Shown: piece by piece, positions 6,205 through 57,811 of the stretch
Numbering within the stretch: the first letter of the stretch is position 1
Layout of the letters: each line of letters begins with the position of its first letter
NCBI GenBank assembly: GCA_021736215.1
Contig: JAIPGI010000001.1
Span: forward strand, 1-64,000
DNA: 64,000 bases
Direction of reading: 5' to 3'
Source: Candidatus Altimarinota bacterium
Lineage (GTDB): Bacteria > Patescibacteriota > Gracilibacteria > UBA4473
Position numbers and translations under genes: made by a program
Notes under the pieces: generated by a model
Told to the model about the DNA's origin: nothing
Seen by the model: the letters and a program-made list of their open reading frames with translations, nothing else
Database searches by the model: none

Positions 6205-7248
6205 ATGAAATCCTTTTTTGACATTCTCTGTTTCGGATCGGTCACGATGGACATGTTTATGACTCCCGACCCACAGGAGACCCCTCTTCTTGAAAAGAAT
6301 GGTCGTGATGGATTTTTTATTCCACTGGACGAAAAAATAAAGGCTTCTAATGTTCTTCAATCGTGTGGAGGAAGTGCTGCTAATACAAGTGCTGGATTTT
6401 CTAAATTAGGATTTCATACTGCTCCCATAGGATTTGTTGGTGATGATGAGGCTCGCATATATATATTTCATGAACTCGAAAGACTTGGAATCCGTACTGA
6501 TTATTTATATCCCAGTAGTCATTCGTTTTCGAGTTTCTCTATTATCATTAACGCAAAAGATGGACGCCGAACAGTCCTGCACTATCGAAATAGTCAAGAA
6601 GATTTTAATCCCGAACACTTACTTGGTGCTCCTCAAACAAAGGCTATTTATATCGGACATTTATACGGGAAATCCGAAGACATGCTTGAAGCAGTTCCAC
6701 AATGGAAGAAACAAACCAAAGGATTCATTGCTTGGAACCCAGGAAAAACGCAGTTTCAAAGAGGTATAACTCCTCTAAAAAACGTTTTTCCTTGTGTTGA
6801 TATTCTCTTTCTCAACGTAGAGGAAGCTGAATATTTCACTGGACTAAAAGCAACAAAATTACAATACAAAAGTGCTTCCGAAAAGATTATCGGGGAAACT
6901 ATTTCCATATCAAATAAATATGTTGCGGATACAGTGAACGACATCCGAGAGATGGCAAAAACATTCCTTGACTTAGGTGTTCGCCAGATTGTCTTCACCG
7001 ATGGAAAGCGGGGCGCTCAGTCAATGACAACAAAAGAACATTTTTTTGTCCCTTCTCTCGATGTTCGTATCCAAAGCACACTCGGAGCGGGAGATGCTTT
7101 TGCTGTAGGAGTTACAGCCGCTTTTATTAAGGGACACCCTCTTCCAACACAACTCCTATGGGGATCACGAAATGCTGGTTCAGTTATACAAAATCTCGGT
7201 GCTCAAACGGGACAACTCTCTTTAAAGAAAATACAACAAGATCGATGA
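6205..7248 (+). CDS. PfkB/ribokinase-family carbohydrate or nucleoside kinase
   Basis: This is a 347-residue protein. The N-terminus (ILCFGSVTMDMF) is the first strand of the ribokinase fold, CGGSAANTSAGFSKLG is the substrate-side Gly-rich motif, and TLGAGDAFAVG at about 291-301 is PfkB signature 2 with the catalytic Asp. An insertion at about 215-250 (ISISNKYVADTVNDI) separates the usual sheet strands. The substrate cannot be read from the sequence; adenosine kinase-like, ribokinase and fructokinase relatives all fit. It starts 15 nt after ftsK with no clear promoter, so it is probably in the ftsK transcript. Confidence 0.85.
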   Translation: MKSFFDILCFGSVTMDMFMTPDPQETPLLEKNGRDGFFIPLDEKIKASNVLQSCGGSAANTSAGFSKLGFHTAPIGFVGDDEARIYIFHELERLGIRTDYLYPSSHSFSSFSIIINAKDGRRTVLHYRNSQEDFNPEHLLGAPQTKAIYIGHLYGKSEDMLEAVPQWKKQTKGFIAWNPGKTQFQRGITPLKNVFPCVDILFLNVEEAEYFTGLKATKLQYKSASEKIIGETISISNKYVADTVNDIREMAKTFLDLGVRQIVFTDGKRGAQSMTTKEHFFVPSLDVRIQSTLGAGDAFAVGVTAAFIKGHPLPTQLLWGSRNAGSVIQNLGAQTGQLSLKKIQQDR

Positions 7249-7939: not shown

Positions 7940-9958
7940 ATGCTTAAAACATCTCTCTCCCAAATACTGAAAACTACAAAAGCTCATCTAACAAAATTAG
8001 GGAAGTTGGAAGTATATTCCGTAGAAGATCTCCTCAATTTTTTCCCGAGAGCCATTGAATCAACGGAGATAACATCTCATTTTGCAAATATTCAGTTGGG
8101 AGCCAAAAACACTATTTCTGGCCGTTTAACTGATTTCCGAAAAGAAAAAACTCCACGAGGGAAATCTTTAGGAAGAGCCGCATTAATTTTGGATGACGAA
8201 TCAGTGATCGATGTTATTTGGTTCCAAATTCCCTACATTCTTAAAAACCTAAAAGACGAAACTCGCGTTTTTCTTGTAGGGAAAATTGATAGAAATTACG
8301 GGAAAATACAAATCTCAAATCCGGAAATTCACCTCGATGCCAATGTCCATGTAGGAAAACTTCGTGCCATTTATCCCGAATCCCCACCAATTACTTCCAA
8401 ATGGCTTCGAGAAAAAATATCTGGACTTTTGTTATTGGCAAAGGATTTTCCAGAAACACTTCCTCCACAAATCCGAGAAGAAGAACATTTCTTGGGAAAA
8501 TCAGACGCTATTCTTACAATTCATGCACCAGCTTCCGCAGAGATGTGGAATCAGGCACGAAAAAGACTCGGATTCGAGGAAGTTTTTGAGATTCAGACCC
8601 GTGTCATGCGAGAGAAGTTCTTACGTGAGAAAGAGATAAAAAATCCTCATAAAATACAATTCGATGCTGAAGCTACGAAACGAAATCTTGAACTTGTGCC
8701 ATTTACACTCACTCTTGCACAAAAAAAAGTTCTTTACGAAATACTTAAGGATTTTGAACGCGATCGCCCTATGCATCGGTTAATGCAAGGAGATGTTGGA
8801 AGTGGGAAAACGATTGTCGGTTTCTTGGCAAGCCTCCCCATTGTTAAATCGGGAGCACAGGCTGTATTCCTTGCGCCAACAGAAATCCTAGCCAAGCAAC
8901 ATTTTACAAATGCTCTTAAATTTTTCCCTTCACACATATCTATTGAACTCCTTACGGGTTCAGTAACTGCTGGAACCAAGAAAAAAATAAAAACACGACT
9001 TCATAATGGAGACATCAATATTCTCATAGGAACCCATGCCGTCCTCACTGAGGATACAGAATTTCAAAATTTGGGATTTGCTGTAATAGATGAACAACAT
9101 CGGTTTGGTGTCCAACAACGCACCATACTTGCACAAAACCAAGCACATGTTTTGGCAATGACCGCAACACCAATCCCACGGACATTGGCCTTAACGATTT
9201 ATGGAGATCAAGACATCTCTGTTATTAGTGAACTTCCGCCTGGAAGAAAGTCCATTATCACTCGAATAGTAGCCGATCCTAAGACAATTTCTCTTTGTAA
9301 CCATTTTATAGATGACCAGATTACTAAGGGACGACAAATTTTTTGGATATGCCCACTTATTGATGAATCAGATAAAATCGAAGCCAAAAATGTGAAAGAA
9401 GAATTTGATCGGATCGCCCATGAAACTTTTCCGAATCGAAAAGTAGAATTTCTTCATGGAAAAATGCGTCCCAAAGAGAAAGACTCTATTATGACGCGCT
9501 TCCGAAACCACGAATTTGACATCTTGGTGTCTACATCGGTGATAGAGGTTGGGGTAGACATTCCAAATGCCACCGTTATGGTTATTGAAAACAGTGAACG
9601 ATTTGGACTTTCACAACTCCATCAATTTCGAGGACGCATCGGAAGAAATGAATTCCAAAGTTATTGCTTTCTTATGGTTGGAAAACCTGATGATGCTAAC
9701 AAGCAAAGGCTACGTGCTCTGGAAAAATCGAATAATGGACTTTTCCTTGCAGAAATAGATCTGAAACTACGGGGCATGGGAGAGTTGTATGGGGTTCGTC
9801 AAAGCGGTATTCCCGATTTCAAATGTGCTGATTTAAACGATCTCGAAATGCTTCAGAAAGCTCGTGACTGGGCCATAAAAATACTCAAAGAAGATCTTAA
9901 TCTTTCTGCATATCCACTCCTCAAGAAGAGAATTGAACAAGAAACAGTATATTTCTAG
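7940..9958 (+). CDS. recG: ATP-dependent DNA helicase RecG
   Basis: This is a 672-residue protein, the usual size. It has an N-terminal wedge/OB domain (about 55-170), Walker A GDVGSGKT at 284-291, DEQH box at about 384-387 followed by RFGVQQR, motif III TATPIPRTL, and motif VI QFRGRIGRNE at about 563-572. The C-terminal segment GMGELYGVRQSG is characteristic of RecG. It remodels stalled forks and branched DNA. A -10 box TACAAT (7924-7929) preceded by TGA (extended -10) lies 10 nt before the ATG. Its 3' end overlaps by 4 nt the convergent gene ending at 9955. Confidence 0.95.
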   Translation: MLKTSLSQILKTTKAHLTKLGKLEVYSVEDLLNFFPRAIESTEITSHFANIQLGAKNTISGRLTDFRKEKTPRGKSLGRAALILDDESVIDVIWFQIPYILKNLKDETRVFLVGKIDRNYGKIQISNPEIHLDANVHVGKLRAIYPESPPITSKWLREKISGLLLLAKDFPETLPPQIREEEHFLGKSDAILTIHAPASAEMWNQARKRLGFEEVFEIQTRVMREKFLREKEIKNPHKIQFDAEATKRNLELVPFTLTLAQKKVLYEILKDFERDRPMHRLMQGDVGSGKTIVGFLASLPIVKSGAQAVFLAPTEILAKQHFTNALKFFPSHISIELLTGSVTAGTKKKIKTRLHNGDINILIGTHAVLTEDTEFQNLGFAVIDEQHRFGVQQRTILAQNQAHVLAMTATPIPRTLALTIYGDQDISVISELPPGRKSIITRIVADPKTISLCNHFIDDQITKGRQIFWICPLIDESDKIEAKNVKEEFDRIAHETFPNRKVEFLHGKMRPKEKDSIMTRFRNHEFDILVSTSVIEVGVDIPNATVMVIENSERFGLSQLHQFRGRIGRNEFQSYCFLMVGKPDDANKQRLRALEKSNNGLFLAEIDLKLRGMGELYGVRQSGIPDFKCADLNDLEMLQKARDWAIKILKEDLNLSAYPLLKKRIEQETVYF

Positions 9959-10503
9959 AATGGAAATTTTTCTTGAAGTGCCGGCAGGAGTTGTTCAGAA
10001 GCATAATATTTTAAGAAAAACATCAGCGGCGAAAATCCCTGATAGGAAAATTCTCCACTCCAGCGTATTTTAGCCTTTCCCTCTGGAGCATCTTCGACAT
10101 GAATCTCTACGTGCCCTTGGATAGGATTTTTATCTGAAGTTTCATACACAATTGATCGTCCTGGCTGAAGTTGCGATATTTTGTATTCCTGTACCTTTTC
10201 TAAAAAAAATAATTTATATTTCATAACAAGTGCGCCTCCCTCTGAAAGTTTTTGCGATGAAAGCTGAACAATCCCATGTGAAGACGAATCAACCTCTGAG
10301 GCAAGACTCCCTGATTGAAACTCCTGGGAAATTTCATCCCAAGCCTGATCTCTCGTCATATTTGTCACTATTTCGTGGGAAAAAGAAAATGTTCGAGTTT
10401 TTTGAAACTGGACATATAAAAGGTAACTCACTCCAAAAATTAAGATAAGTATGAGTGGTGCGATGTTTTTGCGATGACGTATAAATCGAAATCTAATCCA
10501 CAT
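9955..10503 (-). CDS. membrane-anchored SRPBCC/START-like domain protein
   Basis: This is a 182-residue protein. The ATG at 10503 overlaps the end of the upstream gene by 11 nt and is preferred over one at 10542 that lies deeper inside it. A basic N-terminus precedes one helix at about 13-34 (APLILILIFGVSYLLYV). A soluble domain of about 145 residues follows, with a pattern of SRPBCC proteins: MTRDQAWDEISQEF, then strands ending in IRWSGEFSYQG, then a long C-terminal helix (MFFLKYYASEQLLPALQEKF). SRPBCC folds bind hydrophobic ligands; the ligand here is unknown. It is the last gene of the PrgI/TraC-N operon, so a role near that membrane complex is possible. Confidence 0.6.
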   Translation of the reverse strand: MWIRFRFIRHRKNIAPLILILIFGVSYLLYVQFQKTRTFSFSHEIVTNMTRDQAWDEISQEFQSGSLASEVDSSSHGIVQLSSQKLSEGGALVMKYKLFFLEKVQEYKISQLQPGRSIVYETSDKNPIQGHVEIHVEDAPEGKAKIRWSGEFSYQGFSPLMFFLKYYASEQLLPALQEKFPF

Positions 10504-33656: not shown

Positions 33657-34733
33657 TTATTTTATTTCCACCCGCTGGAGTGTGTGGGAGAAGTTTTCGA
33701 AGTGAGACTCGTGTGTGGTTGTAAAAAATATCTGTGACTCATTGCAGAGGTTTTCGAGTGTATCCTGACGGAACTGGTCGAGCTCAGAAAACACATCATC
33801 CAGAAGCAAAAGTGGATGTTGATGAAGGATATCGTAAAACATTTTTTTTTGAGCGACCAAAAGTGCCAAAAGCACCGACCGTGTTTCCCCTCTACTCGCG
33901 GTAGAAGTTAGAGGCTTTCCTCGAAACGAGAATGCAAAATCGTCTCTTTGGGGTCCTAGAAGGCACTTTTGAGCGGCAATTTCTCGTGGCTGAGCGTATT
34001 CAAAAAACGCCATTACTTTTTCGGTTGTCATTTCACATTTTTCTGGAAAAACGAGCTGAATATCTAGTGAATTTTTCTGATGAGACATTTCTTGAAGCGA
34101 GTCCTGCACCAATGGGGTGAGTTTTTTCAAAAGATCCATACGTTCATGTGCGATACGAGGAATTGTTTCAGACAAAATCTGATTCCATGGAGCGATGAGC
34201 GAACTCAGTTCGAACTCTGAAGAGCCCCGAGTTCGAACTGTTTCTTTGTAACTTTTCAAAAGTGCATTTTTCTGTTTCACAGCTTTATTACAACGGGTCA
34301 AATCCTCTCGGTATTGGGGCGAAATCTGAAACAAAAACCGGTCAAAAAACTTCTGTCGATCCCGCTTGGCTGCGGAAAAAAGTGTCAGGTACTCTGGAAC
34401 AAAAAGGAGTGTTGGCACATTGCCGAAGAATTTTTTAAACGATTGCTTTTTCTGATTTCGCGAAAAACTTCTCGATCGAGAGGTAATCATGACTTGATAG
34501 TTATTCCCGTCGCTATCATTTGCTTGAACGATTGCATTGGTCGCCCCTTCTCTAATGAGATCGGCGGGACTCGATTCCCTCCAACTTCGCCCCACGCTCA
34601 AAAGAGAAATCGCTTCAAGGATATTTGTTTTCCCTTTTCCGTTATCGCCAAAAAGGACAATATTTTTCTCTGTAAAATCAAATGTTGTATTGGCGTAATT
34701 TCGGAAGTCTTTGAGGGTAAGGCGGGTAATCAT
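33657..34733 (-). CDS. recF: DNA replication and repair protein RecF
   Basis: This is a 358-residue protein, normal size. It has LTLKDFRNYANTTFDFTEKN at the N-terminus and Walker A GDNGKGKT (about 30-37). The SMC-type lid signature is STASRGETRSVLLALLVAQK and Walker B is LLLLDDVFSELD. It loads RecA at gaps with RecOR. The usual dnaN neighbour is missing; instead its ATG directly follows the stop of a REP-associated transposase on the same strand. Its promoter must lie within that gene; TACTTT ends 6 nt before the ATG and is a weak candidate. Confidence 0.95.
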   Translation of the reverse strand: MITRLTLKDFRNYANTTFDFTEKNIVLFGDNGKGKTNILEAISLLSVGRSWRESSPADLIREGATNAIVQANDSDGNNYQVMITSRSRSFSRNQKKQSFKKFFGNVPTLLFVPEYLTLFSAAKRDRQKFFDRFLFQISPQYREDLTRCNKAVKQKNALLKSYKETVRTRGSSEFELSSLIAPWNQILSETIPRIAHERMDLLKKLTPLVQDSLQEMSHQKNSLDIQLVFPEKCEMTTEKVMAFFEYAQPREIAAQKCLLGPQRDDFAFSFRGKPLTSTASRGETRSVLLALLVAQKKMFYDILHQHPLLLLDDVFSELDQFRQDTLENLCNESQIFFTTTHESHFENFSHTLQRVEIK

Positions 34734-35642
34734 TTAATCAAAGTAAGGATCAAAATCACTGCGACTCTCTTCATATGTATTCAATCCCGGGTTCTGAATT
34801 TCCCTGAACCCGGGATTGGTTTTTGTGGAATCTGTTTTTATTTTTGAACCCATGTTTTGGGAGACCTGAATCCTTGTTTTCGATCTCGGATTTGAAGAAG
34901 TCCGAAACCCGAGAGTGGTCTCTGTGTTCGAATCTAGGTTCTGGGTTATTTTAACCCGTGTATTCGATCCCGGGTTTAAAGAAGTTCCAAACTCGGGATC
35001 TCCTCCATAACTGGAGTGTTCCCATTGTTCGGACGTATCAACAAGCTCGTGTTTGACAGGATTGTATTCAATATATGTTTTGAGCCAAGATAAATAGGCC
35101 TCATCGGTGATTTCTCGTGCCTGAAAACGACCTTCAAAAACGGGAGATTTGAGACCTTTTTTTATTGTTTTGCCATATTTGGCATTGAAAAAAGCCGCAT
35201 AGGATTGCTGAAGATTATTCAGAAAAGAAGATATGTTCGATTCTGATGAAGATTCCAATCCCGGGATCGAATGCGAACCCGGGTTTCGGACTCCTTTAAA
35301 CCCGGGTTCAGTCTTTGTGTTTAATCCTAGGTCTTGAGAAGCCTGAACCCCTGAATGCGATCCCGGGTTCTGAATTTTTTTGAACCCGGGATCGGTCTCC
35401 GTATTTGATTCCAAGTTTAAAGAAGTCCGAAACCCGGGATCGCATTCAAAAACCAAAAAATGAAAATGATTTGGAAGAATGCACCAAACAGGAATTCTGA
35501 TACTCGAAAACTTTTCCTGATACCGAGAGATATTGTTCTGAAATTTTTCATAATCCCGATTCTCAAAAAAAAGCTGTTGTTGATTATAACCACGATTGTA
35601 AATGTGATAATAACATTCTTTTTCAAGAGTTCTTTTTGGCAT
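34734..35642 (-). CDS. REP-associated tyrosine (Y1/HUH) transposase carrying its own REP palindromes in frame
   Basis: This is a 302-residue protein; RAYT proteins are usually near 160-200. I start at the ATG at 35642 because TTGTAT-17-TATAAT ends 7 nt upstream. The core is clear: CYYHIYNRGYNQQQLFFENRDY (in two parts) and the HUH motif PNHFHFLV (His59, His61). Then come SPVFEGRFQAREITDEAYL and TYIEYNPVKHELV with the likely catalytic Tyr190. About 70 residues (67-136) inserted after the HUH strand and about 75 residues at the C-terminus are translated REP palindromes: repeated (D/E)PGF and NPGS units with SNTET linkers. Removing them leaves about 160 residues, a normal RAYT. Such enzymes process REP hairpins as single strands. 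The stop abuts the recF start. Confidence 0.9.
   Translation of the reverse strand: MPKRTLEKECYYHIYNRGYNQQQLFFENRDYEKFQNNISRYQEKFSSIRIPVWCILPNHFHFLVFECDPGFRTSLNLESNTETDPGFKKIQNPGSHSGVQASQDLGLNTKTEPGFKGVRNPGSHSIPGLESSSESNISSFLNNLQQSYAAFFNAKYGKTIKKGLKSPVFEGRFQAREITDEAYLSWLKTYIEYNPVKHELVDTSEQWEHSSYGGDPEFGTSLNPGSNTRVKITQNLDSNTETTLGFRTSSNPRSKTRIQVSQNMGSKIKTDSTKTNPGFREIQNPGLNTYEESRSDFDPYFD
34782..35000. repeat. five REP palindromes in the 3' part of the transposase gene
   Basis: The best copies are 34782-34818 (CAATCCCGGGTTC / GAACCCGGGATTG, 13-bp arms, 11-nt loop) and 34966-35000 (GATCCCGGGTTT / AAACTCGGGATC). Between them, at about 34845-34876, 34881-34915 and 34927-34960, are three decayed copies. 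The spacers share a GGTCTCTGTGTTC-like linker. All are read in frame. Confidence 0.85.
35257..35441. repeat. REP palindromes inserted in the middle of the transposase gene
   Basis: From the right, the copies are as follows: 35407-35441, 35358-35394 (GATCCCGGGTTC / GAACCCGGGATC, perfect), a decayed copy at about 35322-35355, 35272-35309 (GAACCCGGGTTT / AAACCCGGGTTC), and a half copy at 35257-35269. They split the HUH motif from the following helix yet keep the frame. Confidence 0.88.
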
Positions 35643-35649
35643 CGGAAAC

Positions 35650-35678
35650 ATTATATGGAGATTCTTTTCTTGATACAA
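35650..35678 (-). promoter_or_regulatory. transposase promoter, leaderless, abutting a REP
   Basis: TTGTAT (35678-35673), a 17-nt spacer, perfect TATAAT (35655-35650), then 7 nt to the ATG. The first bases of the -35 box are the last bases of the REP palindrome at 35676-35701. Confidence 0.75.
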
Positions 35679-35856
35679 CCCGGGTTCTAGAACCCGGGTT
35701 TGGGTGGGTTTCTATCCCGAGTTTTGAGATGCTTGAAACCCGGGCTCGGAGCTACTCTATATTTCTATCCCGGGTTCGGGAAACCTTGAACCCGGGATAG
35801 GATTGAAAAAGGGAGTTTCGATTCCGGGTTTAAAAGATTCCAAAACCCGGGATCGA
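35676..35856. repeat. REP cluster upstream of the transposase gene
   Basis: Four copies: 35676-35701 (AACCCGGGTTCTAGAACCCGGGTT, loopless), about 35713-35748, 35765-35800 (CTATCCCGGGTTC / GAACCCGGGATAG) and 35818-35856 (TCGATTCCGGGTTT / AAACCCGGGATCGA). Together with the terminator they fill the gap of about 350 bp between the transposase and the S-layer gene. Confidence 0.88.
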
Positions 35857-35878: not shown

Positions 35879-35919
35879 AAAAAACCCCGCCGAGGGCAGA
35901 AGCCCAAGGCGGGGTTTTT
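35879..35919. terminator. terminator of the S-layer gene
   Basis: AAAAAACCCCGCC, GAGGGC-AGAA-GCCC, AAGGCGGGGTTTTT: a long GC-rich hairpin with A and T runs. It lies 70 bp past the stop of the S-layer gene and also screens the REP cluster and transposase from it. Confidence 0.9.
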
Positions 35920-35988: not shown

Positions 35989-38900
35989 TTATTTCTGCAA
36001 ACGTTTACCGTTTGTATCAACATTGAGCAAGTAACCGTTCAACCAATCAAGAGTTGAAGCAGTGTGAGCTGGATCAGATTCATCAGACCAAACAACCAAA
36101 GTTGTGTAAGTAGATGAAGCCAACGTTGTATCATTATCTGATACGTCTGCAGCATCGATAGCAGCAACCAAAGCAGTTGTTGTGATGGTTGCGTTAGCAG
36201 CACCACTAGAAGCAGAGATTGTTACTACGTTTGTAGTAGCAGAAGCAGAGAAGAGACTATTAGCATCAATTGCAGCAGCGATAGCGGTTGCAATGGCATT
36301 ATTTGTAGCTCCGTCAGCAATATTAACTGCGATGGTTTCACCACCGACAACGATATTAGCAACAGCTGGATCTTCTCCACCTGCCAAAGCTGTACCTCCA
36401 ACGGTAATAGTAGCACCAACGAGTTGTTGGTCGTACTTATTACCTGGTGTTCCGTAAGCTAAGTCTCGCAACAAAGTAACGGTAGCACCATCTGAGTTTT
36501 CAGAAGTACCTGATTCAATGATGTTAGAGATAAATACAGCATATGTCCGTGATTCTCCGGCAGAAAGTCGTTCTCCATTGAGATCAATGGATACTCGACC
36601 AGAAGTAGCAGACGTTCCCAAACCACTCACGATAGAAGTCGTGTAAGTTTGGTTATTATCTGGCATTCCGTTAACAACTTTTTGAGTTGTCAAAGCAACT
36701 GCATCTGCTCCATGAGTTACCAATCCGTTCAAAGCAATATCCATAGTAACTCGTCCGATTTCAGCTTGACGCTGAGCATCAGCGGTAACTGTAAATCGGT
36801 AGAACTCTGTAGAAGCCGTAGAAGGCAAGTTCATAGATGGCTGCGTTGAAGCAGGAGCAATCTTGAGCTTGGTTCGGTAGACAACGAAGTCTTGACCAAC
36901 TACTGCATCACCCCAACCAGCGGATGGAGTAGCAATATCGTCTCCGGTTGCGGCTGTAACAGCCTCAATACCCTTTGTGGCATTGGTTGTTTCCAAAGCC
37001 AATTTCAATCGTGATCCGGTTTGATTAGCCTTCGTGATGTCTCGTACATCAACCTTAACGGTAACGTAGCTTGAGTCATCTTTTGGCACTCGGATACGAT
37101 CTTGATTTGCCAATTGGAAGTGTACTTTTCCAGTACTCATTTGTTTCTGTTGAACCAATTGTCCGGCAGAATTGTAGAGTTTGAAGTCGACACGATCTCC
37201 AACAGTATTACCAAGATCATTTTCAAAGTAGATGTCTTTGATCTGTACTTCATCGTCTGCGGCGTTGAATCGAACTTTGAGGACTTCAACATTTGCTTGG
37301 TTTGCAACCAAGATGTCAGAAGCCACCGTTGTGTCGAGACTCACCGTCAAACTACCAGAACTAACCAATTCGAAGGAACTTCCCTGAATTGGGTTTCCTG
37401 TAGAAACTGCCGTATTACCACTATCAACAACATTAACTTGTTGACCATTTTCAACATTGTCTGCGTCAACCGCAGTCAAGTTGAGTTTGACCTGGTGTTT
37501 AATAGTAACAGTGTCTCCATTTGTAGGCAACGTAGCCGTAGCCAAAGCAGGAGCGAAAGTTACAGTCTTTGTTCCAGTGTCAATTACTGTAATAGCATGT
37601 TCAGTGTCGGCAACACCAGTTGTCGCAATGGTGAAGATATCTCCAACAGTCATTCCGGTTACCGCAGTTAAGATCAATGTGGTATCAGCATTTGCGATAG
37701 CAACATCATTAATAGTTGTAGTAATTGCTGTAGCAGAAGCCTCAATCGTATCAACAACGATTGTAAATTCCTTCTGTCCAGCGGATGGGATAACTACTGA
37801 CAAGTCGTTGAAAGTAGCAACTCCAGCAGTAGAAAGGTTTTTGGCAGAACCCTGTTGAGTTCCGTCGACGAATACTGCCAACGTAAAGTTGGTGTAGGTT
37901 CGAGCAGATCCAGAAACTCCAACTCCAGCAGGTGTGGCATTAACAGCTGTGTCAGCTTGAACAGTAGCAGAGGTAACGTTTACGTCACCAGAATCGTTAT
38001 TGTCGAGAACGAATTTCATAAATGTAACATCGTCCACTCCAGCAACAATCTTGTCACCGTCAGAAAGACCACTGGTCTGTGTAGCAATCAAAGCAGAAGA
38101 TCGAACTTCTACGAATGAACCTTCGGCAGAACCGAGAAGTCCAGCTGTAGCGACTTGGTCTCCGGTAGAGATGTACTCTGGAGATTGGAAGTCAGTAGCC
38201 GCAACCTTCAATTTGAGTTTGTCTCCTGTTTGAGCTGCATCTTGAACGTTTGCAACGATCTTCAAAATAGAAGTTCCTGCAATTTCAAATGTTGTATTGA
38301 AGTTCAAGTAGTAGTTTGTTACTGGAGCAACAGTAGTTGTACCACTGAAGTCGTTTTCACTGTCTACTAATTTGTCGTTCAAGTACAATCGGAAGTTGTC
38401 GTATACTGCATTGAAACAAGCCAAAGAATCTTGAACACAAGTTGTTCCAGTTGGATTAGCCTGTACCGTAGAGTTAGCGGCAACACGAATGATCACTCCG
38501 TCGACCAACAAAGGTTGATCAACAACCAAACGAGCAGTCATAATCACAACATCGTTGGATCCTGGAGAGTACTCCTGATTTCCAATAGATGAAGGATCAC
38601 GAGAAACGTTCAAGTCTCCTGAGTCGATCATGTAAGCTCGCAAACGAGCACAAGCGTCTTCAGCATCTTTTGCAGAACAAACAGTCGTGCTTGTAACAGT
38701 AGAAGTACCGTCTAAGTCAAGACCGAAAGCATTGTCAGAAAGAGCTTTGACACCGAAAGATGTTCCGATTTCAACACCAACAACATCTTCGAAGTTGTCG
38801 ATTTTGAGGTTGATTGTATCGCTCTTTTCAGCAGATACGATATCAGCTCGGATAGAGAAGATTCGGCTGTCTCCATCTTCGATAACATAACCACCTGTTA

Positions 38901-40272
38901 CTCCGTTATCCAAACGGAATGTCATGTAGTCACCATCAATGATAGTTTCAGCAGAAACCTGTTCACCAGAAACATACAAAGCAACGTTTTCAAGGTTGTC
39001 TTCGAGTTGTGCTGTACCATCGTTTTTGAAGGTAAGAGCACGAAGTTCAACATCTTTATTCGTGTTTGATGAATTCAAAACTCGGAATTTACCGATTTCG
39101 ATGAAGTTGTCTCCAACATCAATCGTTGTGTCGGATCCCAAAGTTGAGAATTTCAACTGAGATACTTCGTAGTCAGCAACAGCCATTTCTTCACCTTCGA
39201 TTGGGAAGTCTCCGACAACGTTTGCTGCCGTAGAAGAAATGTCGTCAGCGCTCACAAGAGCGAAACGGTTGTGATGTCCGATATTTTTGTCATCTGCTGT
39301 GTATTTAGAAGATGCAACAACATCAGCCCACAATGTTTGTCCGGCAGGAACAACAACTGGTGGGTTGAACCGAAGTTCAACGATATCGTCGTTGTTAACG
39401 GATTTGTCGTTTCCAACTTTGAATCCGTCGATTTCGAGCCATACATTGTCGAAGTCGTCATTGTCTCCAAGCCCGAGACGTGTGAATGTCAAAGAAGAAA
39501 CTTCAACATCGCTGTCGTCAGAAGCAGTAAGTTCCAACGTGAAGTATGGAACGGAAGTAGCATTGTAAGGAATGTTTGTTCCGCGTGGAGTGTCTCCTGA
39601 GAGAACAACTTCCAACGTACCTTCAGCTGGTCCTGTTGGTGCAGCTACAACCAATTGAGAATTGTAAACGACGTGTGCGGTTTCAGCACGAGTCACAGCG
39701 TTAGCTGGACCAAATGTACCGTCCCCGTAACCCTTCATCAATCCATTATTGTAAGCTGTCTCAACGTATCCGTAGTACCAATCTCCTTCAGAAACATCAT
39801 CAAAATGAGGAGCTCCTGAAAGATCTTGATCAATTTCGAATGCGTTTACGACCATCTTTGCAATTTCAGCTCGGTTGATACCGACACCTGGGCGGAAAAG
39901 TCCGTCAGGATATCCGTTTACCCAACCGTAGTTGTACATTGTTTCGATGTAATCGTAGTACCAAGCGTCCTCAGCAACATCTGGGAAGTGAGGGCCACCG
40001 GTAGTATCAAAATCGATTCCTGAAGCCAAAACGATAACCTTGGAAACTTCTGCTCGATTCAATTGTCGATTTGGTGCAAAAGATCCGTCATCATTTCCGC
40101 TCAGCACTCCCTGGTCGAGAAGCTCTTGAATAGCCTCTGTGGCCCAGGTAGGGATTTCTGAAGCATCAGTAAAAGGCAAGGCTGCCTGAGCTACTGGAGC
40201 AATGAACATGAAAGCCATTGCTGCCAAAGCGACTGATGCCACACTTTTCTTAATTTGGGCAAATAAGTCCAT
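35989..40272 (-). CDS. giant S-layer protein with three N-terminal SLH domains
   Basis: This is a 1427-residue protein. A signal peptide ends VAQAALPF (about residue 30). Three SLH domains follow (about 31-85, 93-150, 157-210), recognisable by FTDASEIPTWATEAIQ, VNGYPDGLFRPG with NRAEIAKM, and MKGYGDGTFGPAN with TRAETAHV. These bind secondary cell-wall glycan. The remaining 1200 residues are acidic, rich in Thr, Val, Asp and Ala, with repeated beta-sandwich patterns and almost no Cys. Asparagine and aspartate codons are mostly AAC and GAC, unlike neighbouring genes, which fits very high expression. A structured leader and a strong terminator flank it. It is probably the main surface layer subunit. 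Confidence 0.9.
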   Translation of the reverse strand: MDLFAQIKKSVASVALAAMAFMFIAPVAQAALPFTDASEIPTWATEAIQELLDQGVLSGNDDGSFAPNRQLNRAEVSKVIVLASGIDFDTTGGPHFPDVAEDAWYYDYIETMYNYGWVNGYPDGLFRPGVGINRAEIAKMVVNAFEIDQDLSGAPHFDDVSEGDWYYGYVETAYNNGLMKGYGDGTFGPANAVTRAETAHVVYNSQLVVAAPTGPAEGTLEVVLSGDTPRGTNIPYNATSVPYFTLELTASDDSDVEVSSLTFTRLGLGDNDDFDNVWLEIDGFKVGNDKSVNNDDIVELRFNPPVVVPAGQTLWADVVASSKYTADDKNIGHHNRFALVSADDISSTAANVVGDFPIEGEEMAVADYEVSQLKFSTLGSDTTIDVGDNFIEIGKFRVLNSSNTNKDVELRALTFKNDGTAQLEDNLENVALYVSGEQVSAETIIDGDYMTFRLDNGVTGGYVIEDGDSRIFSIRADIVSAEKSDTINLKIDNFEDVVGVEIGTSFGVKALSDNAFGLDLDGTSTVTSTTVCSAKDAEDACARLRAYMIDSGDLNVSRDPSSIGNQEYSPGSNDVVIMTARLVVDQPLLVDGVIIRVAANSTVQANPTGTTCVQDSLACFNAVYDNFRLYLNDKLVDSENDFSGTTTVAPVTNYYLNFNTTFEIAGTSILKIVANVQDAAQTGDKLKLKVAATDFQSPEYISTGDQVATAGLLGSAEGSFVEVRSSALIATQTSGLSDGDKIVAGVDDVTFMKFVLDNNDSGDVNVTSATVQADTAVNATPAGVGVSGSARTYTNFTLAVFVDGTQQGSAKNLSTAGVATFNDLSVVIPSAGQKEFTIVVDTIEASATAITTTINDVAIANADTTLILTAVTGMTVGDIFTIATTGVADTEHAITVIDTGTKTVTFAPALATATLPTNGDTVTIKHQVKLNLTAVDADNVENGQQVNVVDSGNTAVSTGNPIQGSSFELVSSGSLTVSLDTTVASDILVANQANVEVLKVRFNAADDEVQIKDIYFENDLGNTVGDRVDFKLYNSAGQLVQQKQMSTGKVHFQLANQDRIRVPKDDSSYVTVKVDVRDITKANQTGSRLKLALETTNATKGIEAVTAATGDDIATPSAGWGDAVVGQDFVVYRTKLKIAPASTQPSMNLPSTASTEFYRFTVTADAQRQAEIGRVTMDIALNGLVTHGADAVALTTQKVVNGMPDNNQTYTTSIVSGLGTSATSGRVSIDLNGERLSAGESRTYAVFISNIIESGTSENSDGATVTLLRDLAYGTPGNKYDQQLVGATITVGGTALAGGEDPAVANIVVGGETIAVNIADGATNNAIATAIAAAIDANSLFSASATTNVVTISASSGAANATITTTALVAAIDAADVSDNDTTLASSTYTTLVVWSDESDPAHTASTLDWLNGYLLNVDTNGKRLQK

Positions 40273-40724: not shown

Positions 40725-40762
40725 CAATCCCGGGTTCTGGAAATTCCTTGAACCCGGGATTG
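40725..40762. repeat. REP palindrome (intergenic)
   Basis: CAATCCCGGGTTC, a 12-nt loop TGGAAATTCCTT, GAACCCGGGATTG. It is the same family as the palindromes in the transposase gene. Confidence 0.92.
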
Positions 40763-43921: not shown

Positions 43922-43963
43922 CTCAATCCCGGGTTCTAGAAATTCATTGAACCCGGGATTGAG
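43922..43963. repeat. REP palindrome (intergenic)
   Basis: CTCAATCCCGGGTTC, loop TAGAAATTCATT, GAACCCGGGATTGAG: 15-bp perfect arms, the longest in the window. It lies between the divergent PKD-SLH and M16 peptidase genes. Confidence 0.93.
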
Positions 43964-56384: not shown

Positions 56385-56440
56385 GAACGAGAGAAGTGTA
56401 CCGATTTTTTATTTTTTTAAAACCATTCTTTCGCGCCCCT

Positions 56441-56477
56441 TCATCCCAGGTTCTAAGAATTTTTGAACCCGGGATGA
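56441..56477. repeat. REP palindrome upstream of purQ
   Basis: TCATCCCAGGTTC, loop TAAGAATTTTT, GAACCCGGGATGA: one mismatch (A opposite C) in the left arm. It lies between the rmuC and purQ promoters. Confidence 0.88.
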
Positions 56478-56527
56478 AAATATTCACCCTTTTTTTCTTC
56501 TTCAAAATTAGTACAATTCAACTGCCC

Positions 56528-57811
56528 ATGAAACCCAAGCTCGCTGTCATCACCTTTCCTGGAAACAATTGTGAAACGGAATCTATTCGAGCAGGAAAAC
56601 GAAATGGCTTTGATACAGAGCTCGTTCTCTGGAACGAAAAAGCGCGAAGCGTCCCGAACTCGTCTCGGGATCTCTCCAAATTTGATGCCTATTTTTTGAT
56701 TGGGGGATTTTCTTTTGAAGATCGAGGCCGATCAGGAGCCATTCCCGCACGAGAACCGATTTTTGACGAACTCCGAAAGGAAGCCAAAAAAGGAAAAGTT
56801 ATCTTGGGTGTTTGTAATGGAGCTCAGATGATTGTGGAATCAGGACTTATCCCCGTGGGAGACAATCCTGTCCCATTTGCTCTCGCGGAAAATATCCGAC
56901 GAAATCCCTCTGGCCACGTTATGGGAACAGGATACTACAACGTCTGGGTGCACCTCAAAAAAGAACGACTAGATACCGCTTTTACCTGTGCCGCCAAAGA
57001 TCTATTACAAGTTCCCATTGCTCATGGAGAAGGACGATTTACTTCTATTGATACGAAGGCTCTCAAGGCACTTGCCGGAAATAAAAACGTTGCTTATCGA
57101 TATGCAGATGCTGAAGGGAACGTGAGTACCGATTTTCCCATTACCCCTAATGGAGCCAAATATGCAGTCGCTATGCTCGTGAATGATGAAGGAACGATTG
57201 GGGCTATCATGCCTCATCCAGAAAGATTTTATGATCATTTCGACGGAGACCAAATCTTTGCTTCAATGAAAAAGTGGATTGAGGCAAAACACTCTCCTTC
57301 AAGCGTTAAAATTGGAGAATTTCACAAATCCGAACTGCCTGAAATAAAGCCTTTTGTCCCCGAGGAAAAGGCTCTTCTTCTCGAAAAGAAACTTATCATT
57401 ACCGACAATGAATCCTTTTCCGTTTCACAAGCCGCAAGTGATGTATCTGGAGAGAAAATAAATTTCGAAAAAAGTATTCTTTTTGAAATAACGGGGAAAG
57501 CCCTAGATAAGAAAAAAATTCTCGAATCCGGTCTTATTCTCAATGAAAATAAAGAAGTCCTCATACCCAAACCCGGGTTCAAAGAACCTCAGAACCCGGG
57601 TTTATCACAAAACAAATATGCCGTACTTCCACTGGAAGATGACACGGCTTCTGCTTTGGGTGAAAAACTTTCCGCACTCCTCAAAACAGAAGTATCGGTA
57701 AAGATTTATAAATGCTGGGATTTCGGGAATACTTCTGAATCCGCCATCCAAAAAGTTCTGCAAAACAGGCTTCTCGCCAACCCAAATTCAGCGAAACTTT
57801 ATAAATTCTGA
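56528..57811 (+). CDS. purQ: phosphoribosylformylglycinamidine synthase glutaminase PurQ with a 170-residue C-terminal extension
   Basis: This is a 427-residue protein; PurQ is about 230-260. The ATG at 56528 is chosen because TACAAT (56512-56517) ends 10 nt upstream. The glutaminase has FPGNNCETES, GGFSFEDRGRSGAI, the nucleophile in VCNGAQM, and the His-Glu pair in MPHPERF. Residues about 255-427 are not in normal PurQ. Their end (QNRLLANPNSAKLYKF) recalls the C-terminus of PurS, so this may be a PurQ-PurS-like fusion that would complement the half-length PurL. A complete REP palindrome is read in frame at residues 348-359 (PKPGFKEPQNPGL). A smaller TCCCGA...TCGGGA palindrome at about 56659-56677 encodes an extra RSVPNSSR loop. 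Confidence 0.85.
   Translation: MKPKLAVITFPGNNCETESIRAGKRNGFDTELVLWNEKARSVPNSSRDLSKFDAYFLIGGFSFEDRGRSGAIPAREPIFDELRKEAKKGKVILGVCNGAQMIVESGLIPVGDNPVPFALAENIRRNPSGHVMGTGYYNVWVHLKKERLDTAFTCAAKDLLQVPIAHGEGRFTSIDTKALKALAGNKNVAYRYADAEGNVSTDFPITPNGAKYAVAMLVNDEGTIGAIMPHPERFYDHFDGDQIFASMKKWIEAKHSPSSVKIGEFHKSELPEIKPFVPEEKALLLEKKLIITDNESFSVSQAASDVSGEKINFEKSILFEITGKALDKKKILESGLILNENKEVLIPKPGFKEPQNPGLSQNKYAVLPLEDDTASALGEKLSALLKTEVSVKIYKCWDFGNTSESAIQKVLQNRLLANPNSAKLYKF
57569..57603. repeat. REP palindrome inside purQ
   Basis: AAACCCGGGTTC, loop AAAGAACCTCA, GAACCCGGGTTT: 12-bp perfect arms within the purQ reading frame. The translated product resembles the (D/E)PGF...NPG units of the transposase insert. 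Confidence 0.93.

Follow-up and report, generated by a model that had tools for sequence, protein, structure and literature searches.

The window, a stretch of 64,000 nucleotides, belongs to a Gracilibacteria genome (G000) of 1.01 Mb in 17 contigs. On its reverse strand, at 34734..35678, lies an ORF of 314 aa when read from a TTG codon (ATG starts lie slightly downstream), which the first-pass annotation had taken for a RAYT transposase. It is directly followed by recF (33657..34733, reverse strand), which also adjoins the orthologue in the congener G001, a Candidatus Gracilibacteria MAG, and, as read from flanking DNA, in G015. A large gene for an SLH/S-layer-type protein (35989..40272, reverse strand) is located upstream, and its terminator-like hairpin (35880-35919) precedes a block of REP palindromes. 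The RAYT identity was borne out. The ORF matched PF01797 with 31.5 bits, over the family cut-off, and carries the HuH and Y---NP motifs of the RAYT/TnpA_REP (class 2 Y1) domain, namely NHFH (35460-35471, reverse strand) and a catalytic tyrosine (codon 35073-35075, reverse strand) within YIEYNPV, both of which show little or no variation in the family alignments. For NF047646 (REP_Tyr_transpos) the score was 54.8 bits, in a match split in two and below the 80-bit cut-off; the insert-free relative G003 reached 72.8 bits against the same cut-off. The best PDB match of the fold was 4er8, an E. coli RAYT with its REP (E 3.1e-7). AlphaFold2 modelled the core with pLDDT >90 and most of the two REP-bearing blocks with values <50. 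We conclude that this is a RAYT-type Y1/HUH protein whose core is normal when the blocks are disregarded, as had been proposed, and the suggested search for orthologues free of inserts found them in G003 and G016.

Two blocks of REP copies are embedded in the gene. Block 1 (35257..35441, reverse strand, residues about 80-140) separates the HUH strand from the next helix and is largely predicted to be disordered, and block 2 (34782..35000, reverse strand), also predicted to be disordered, follows the core and precedes the conserved tail SDFDPYFD. Four in-ORF stem-loops are well formed: those at 35358..35394 and 34782..34818 are perfect with 13-bp arms, that at 35275..35309 has AACCCGGGTT on both sides, and that at 34966..35000 has one mutated arm. 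The other copies are decayed or one-armed. The copy at 35408..35440 retains one intact arm, and its loop almost matches the loops at 34883, 34967 and 35275; the copy at 34883..34915 is decayed, that at 35257..35270 is a half REP consisting of the single palindrome ATCCCGGGAT, and remnants occur near 34847 and 34953. The figure of about ten REPs in the gene given in the first-pass annotation holds when the decayed copies are counted and not otherwise. When a REP core was defined as a 10-mer with at most 2 mismatches from the consensus, the RAYT ORF contained 15 cores, compared to a mean of 0.8 and a maximum of 5 after shuffling. The four further copies reported upstream were found as well: a double palindrome AACCCGGGTTCTAGAACCCGGGTT at the 5' edge of the ORF (35677..35700), a partly decayed copy (35714..35746), a perfect one (35765..35800) and one with a single mismatch in its core arms (35818..35856). 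On the 3' side the REP copies lie inside the end of the ORF, not beyond it.

This anatomy is observed directly. The coding frame contains 0 stops in both in-gene blocks, whereas the other sense frames hold 3 and 2 stops in one block and 4 and 1 in the other, and 2 stops occur in every sense frame of the upstream block. This implies that the frame has been kept, in agreement with the earlier proposal. The in-gene copies share loop sequence that is absent from the other REPs of the genome sample, which suggests local multiplication; the shared loops form only a subset, and local copies were on average no more similar in their loops than remote ones were (permutation p 0.74).

The REP family extends over the whole genome, in which the exact word AACCCGGGA occurs 70 times, compared to 0-1 occurrences of the reversed word. 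In 372 kb of the genome we recorded 44 stem-loop matches, some of them overlapping, and perfect REPs of the family are present in the window at 40728..40759 and 43927..43958. The placement of REPs in ORFs was assessed over these 372 kb and at selected sites. Outside the RAYT locus, 24 of the 46 sampled REPs lay inside ORFs of at least 100 aa, so the enzyme gene is not the only one to have taken them up. Most of the better in-ORF copies encode peptides like EPGFKDSQNPGS, of the type [NED]PG[FS]. The repeat stands in frame in unrelated conserved genes, among them those for riboflavin synthase (RibE), RibD (two copies), TopA, an XthA-like nuclease, TruB, a MiaB-type radical SAM protein and class I tRNA synthetases. 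In comparison to PDB 9ryj, RibE has a clean extra stretch of ~14 aa; the XthA-like nuclease shows a net gain in length around its REP, and RibD a smaller gain at both of its sites. In the window, a GATase_5 ORF of 471 aa (56396..57811, forward strand) includes two in-frame REPs, at 56443-56475, which may precede the true start, and at 57570-57602. The presence of REPs in frame in so many unrelated genes indicates that this genome has an RPE-like habit. The window RAYT is the densest sampled case of it, not a unique one: the REP density of its ORF was ~85 times that of other ORFs of the genome by a rough count, based on ORFs picked with a greedy length rule instead of a gene finder.

In-frame REPs with PG-rich inserts were noted at window positions 56396-57811 and at loci L058, L060, L061, L064, L071, L072, L074, L161, L164 and L170. 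The REP in miaB of the window's genome (L064:1409-2773) encodes IPGSGCLDPGI, and the orthologue in the congener (L082) has SPGSGCAEPGL at this place, where the DNA has lost the clean palindrome. The similar PG peptide implies that not every REP in an ORF is a recent insertion, and the miaB insert is probably older than the split between the two genomes. In G017 (loci L172-L180), copies of GAGACCGGTCTC were likewise seen in frame in ORFs, often paired.

Comparison with the congener revealed a different palindrome at the same places. In its RAYT orthologue, GGATTCGTATCC stands upstream, within the post-HUH loop and within the C-terminal linker, and the window's genome has CCCGGG-type REPs at these three places instead. 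Close homologues sharing conserved, palindrome-free peptide inserts, which would have told against the earlier proposal, were thus not what we found, nor were the copies foreign to the rest of the genome. In a search of genome contigs with the insert-free core, a distant deltaproteobacterial protein was the only match besides the congener, and a DNA check of plasmid homologues from four other genera detected no flank palindrome in common with the gene. A class-wide profile search of Gracilibacteria found RAYTs in 54 of 353 genomes, and 51 RAYT loci were read in relatives. Taking as a flank word any perfect 10-nt palindrome with at least 3 G/C letters in the 500-nt flanks, we obtained 43 qualifying genes, 21 of which contain the identical flank word inside the ORF; words taken from the flanks of other genes matched in 2 of 2098 comparisons. 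Words repeated in the flanks occurred inside the gene in 19 of 27 cases and in the outer 500-1500 nt in 3 of 27. The density of words was 10.5/kb within 0-150 nt of the gene, 2.5/kb in the gene, 0.69/kb at 150-500 nt and 0.25/kb at 500-1500 nt. This concentration around the locus, a direct observation, accords with the suggestion that the gene is a preferred target.

The identity of the words inside and outside the gene, equally observed, is specific to lineages. The lineage words comprise AGACCGGTCT, AGTCCGGACT, ACCCCGGGGT, ATCCCGGGAT, AGTTCGAACT, AGGTCGACCT, GTACCGGTAC, CACCCGGGTG, ACACCGGTGT and AACCCGGGTT, and at least 11 word changes are required on the RAYT protein tree, which is itself weakly supported. 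In the genus g11, three orthologues, all with the start of a der-like GTPase gene downstream, have three words at one site. Moreover, in each of three genomes with two RAYTs, either gene has its own word inside and outside and none of the other's. In G158 and G159 the exact copies of the searched word are all at the RAYT locus. The in-gene copies are found after the HUH strand, in some relatives before the VFEGRF segment, and in the C-terminal tail; the copy in the first loop is rather constant in site and frame across lineages with different words. In G027, one word is read in different frames at several sites of one gene (as VRT, SPDS and ESGL), which means that the DNA and not the peptide is what is shared. 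The codons under the palindromes were identical in 24 of 27 cases, compared to 17.1 expected (P 0.003, one-sided, on disjoint gene pairs and few codons), a conservation higher than in the remainder of the gene. In-gene copies are decayed or missing in G161, G110, G109 and G085.

We consider it somewhat probable, with a chance of roughly 60%, that the RAYT propagates its cognate REPs chiefly in cis and that in-frame copies persist in tolerant loops, where they turn over together with the flanks. The enzyme would cut and rejoin single-stranded REP hairpins and thereby seed new copies, most of which would land near its own gene; in Gracilibacteria copies would also land within reading frames. Only in-frame, stop-free inserts in tolerant places would survive, presumably by passive tolerance, these places being the one after the HUH strand, the one before VFEGRF and the C-terminal tail. 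Once the palindrome of the enzyme has changed in a given lineage, the copies in the flanks and in the gene would acquire the same new sequence, and the data do not discriminate between renewed insertion, conversion between copies and selection as the route of this turnover. As part of the same explanation, the window locus would be a REPtron, consisting of a vertically kept RAYT gene and its cognate palindromes, and an extreme case in which local copies have multiplied into two arrays. The words confined to the locus in G158 and G159, the decayed or missing copies and the codon test fit cis spread with shared turnover. At the same time, passive tolerance alone does not predict the constant site and frame in the first loop or the conservation of the codons under the palindromes.

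These two features are accommodated by a second explanation, that the in-gene palindromes are working sites, at which the RAYT would bind its own hairpin in the gene or mRNA and limit its own expression or activity, nucleotide-level selection keeping the sites while they are rewritten in step with the specificity of the enzyme. Distant lineages, though their words differ, have copies in the same loop and mostly in one frame, which points in this direction, as do the word of G027 kept in different frames and the confinement of words to the RAYT locus in G158 and G159. The internal block also folds strongly as RNA (z -8.7), which is explained by the palindromic nature of the repeats. However, 22 of the 43 genes with flank palindromes have no exact in-gene copy, the copies have decayed or been lost in the four relatives named above, several copies in the window gene are decayed themselves, and the same REPs are present in unrelated genes. 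We regard this explanation as rather unlikely. In the form that the cognate palindrome at fixed in-gene sites is a self-recognition or autoregulatory element, so that specificity, flanks and in-gene sites would switch together between lineages, and even between orthologues within a genus such as those of g11, it can be put forward as a tentative idea, its odds being a shade higher though still low. The in-gene copies might thus serve in regulation.

It is considerably less probable that a genome-wide coding palindrome of the RPE kind inserts anywhere, and that the RAYT gene has often been struck by chance or tolerance, without any cis preference. The many REPs in other ORFs, most of them encoding [NED]PG[FS]-type peptides, and the GAGACCGGTCTC copies in ORFs of G017 would be expected under such insertion, but it does not account for the excess density in the RAYT ORF (on the rough count given), for a word that G158 and G159 have nowhere outside the RAYT locus, or for outer flanks that are nearly word-free. 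Finally, the PG-rich repeat peptides and their predicted disorder could suggest ordinary low-complexity protein repeats that look palindromic in the DNA by accident, a view refuted by the same DNA outside the gene and genome-wide, partly in intergenic positions, by one word being read in different frames and by orthologues that have different words at one site.

In-frame REPs in a RAYT gene are not, as had been thought at first, without precedent. According to Quentin et al. 2018 (PMC6006769), TnpA_REP subclass 2.4, which equals RAYT group 4 of Bertels, is unique in having REPs in frame within its tnpA_REP genes, generally in the interval between HuH and Y (beta3-alphaC); REPs flank these genes, the authors' model places the variable region at the periphery, and there are few copies per genome. 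The window RAYT resembles this subclass in being flanked by REPs, in having in-frame REPs between HuH and Y, and in its HuH motif (NHFH, compared to NH[IFV]H). Its YIEYNP is one residue off the Y motif YIxNNP of the subclass. It differs in that it has VFEG in place of the W motif WQ and that the GT[AG]G foot (or double foot) of the REPs was present in 1 of 56 REPs here, within 8 nt of the arm; judged by the described features, and for lack of these two marks, the protein is not assigned to subclass 2.4. Furthermore, copies occur here also in the C-terminal tail and, in some relatives, before VFEGRF, the host is a member of the Gracilibacteria, and in-gene and flanking words change together from lineage to lineage.

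REPs inside ORFs have been reported by Di Nocera et al. 2013 (PMC3733652), Rickettsia included. The likeness to RPEs considered here is one of placement and consists in palindromic repeats standing in frame in many unrelated genes and tolerated in loops, whereas in our genome the same repeat also flanks a RAYT gene, which is more heavily loaded with it than any other gene sampled. In the available part of Nunvar et al. 2010 (PMC2817692), RAYTs are flanked by inverted REPs with which they coevolve, the REPs stay palindromic and orthologues keep their position, all of which is similar to our system; the REPs of these classical REPtrons flank the gene, and that part of the paper makes no mention of copies in the coding sequence. 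With TnpA of IS200/IS605 elements (IS608, ISDra2) the window RAYT shares the Y1 HUH fold, seen as structural matches, and the association with hairpins, which are subterminal in those elements. However, those proteins have a Y---Q motif in place of Y---NP, no tnpB-like neighbour was seen beside the window gene, and the RAYT occupies a locus that is conserved in the congener.

A literature search on REPs of Gracilibacteria found no papers. The second and third in-gene sites, the lineage-by-lineage matching, the within-genome pairing and the genome-wide coding REPs in Gracilibacteria do not appear in the available text of PMC6006769, PMC3733652 and PMC2817692. What is new here is the class-wide pattern, in which one lineage after another has a palindrome of its own that occurs both within its RAYT gene and around it. 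The many related RAYTs with different matched palindromes make up a natural set of enzymes and substrates, from which RAYT specificity could be predicted from sequence and examined by swap tests, and the lineage-matched words make it testable whether the in-gene copies are passengers or control sites. The questions touched are how RAYTs spread REPs, possibly in cis, and what role RAYTs have for the cell. REPs that become peptide inserts of core enzymes outside Rickettsia also bear on the origin of protein loops.

Several arrangements of Y1_Tnp and RAYT sequences were noted in passing. At L054:2-1813 (reverse strand; G001:C3, about 8500-10500), a Y1_Tnp domain (PF01797, 1.8e-13) is in frame in a leucyl-tRNA synthetase ORF and directly precedes the editing-domain match, and long frames with PF01797 matches were found in G025:C40, G025:C6 and G016:C9 too. 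The RAYTs of G135:C6 and G135:C7 (L110, L100) have nearly identical C-terminal parts and differ in their palindromes and N-terminal parts, as after gene conversion. Tandem RAYT genes with the same palindromes are located at G106:C6:5097-5579 and 6466-6948 (L103). RAYT genes often lie a few hundred bases from a contig end (G001:C1, G340:C1, G135:C7, G106:C13 and G346:C18), as if the repeats had broken the assemblies.
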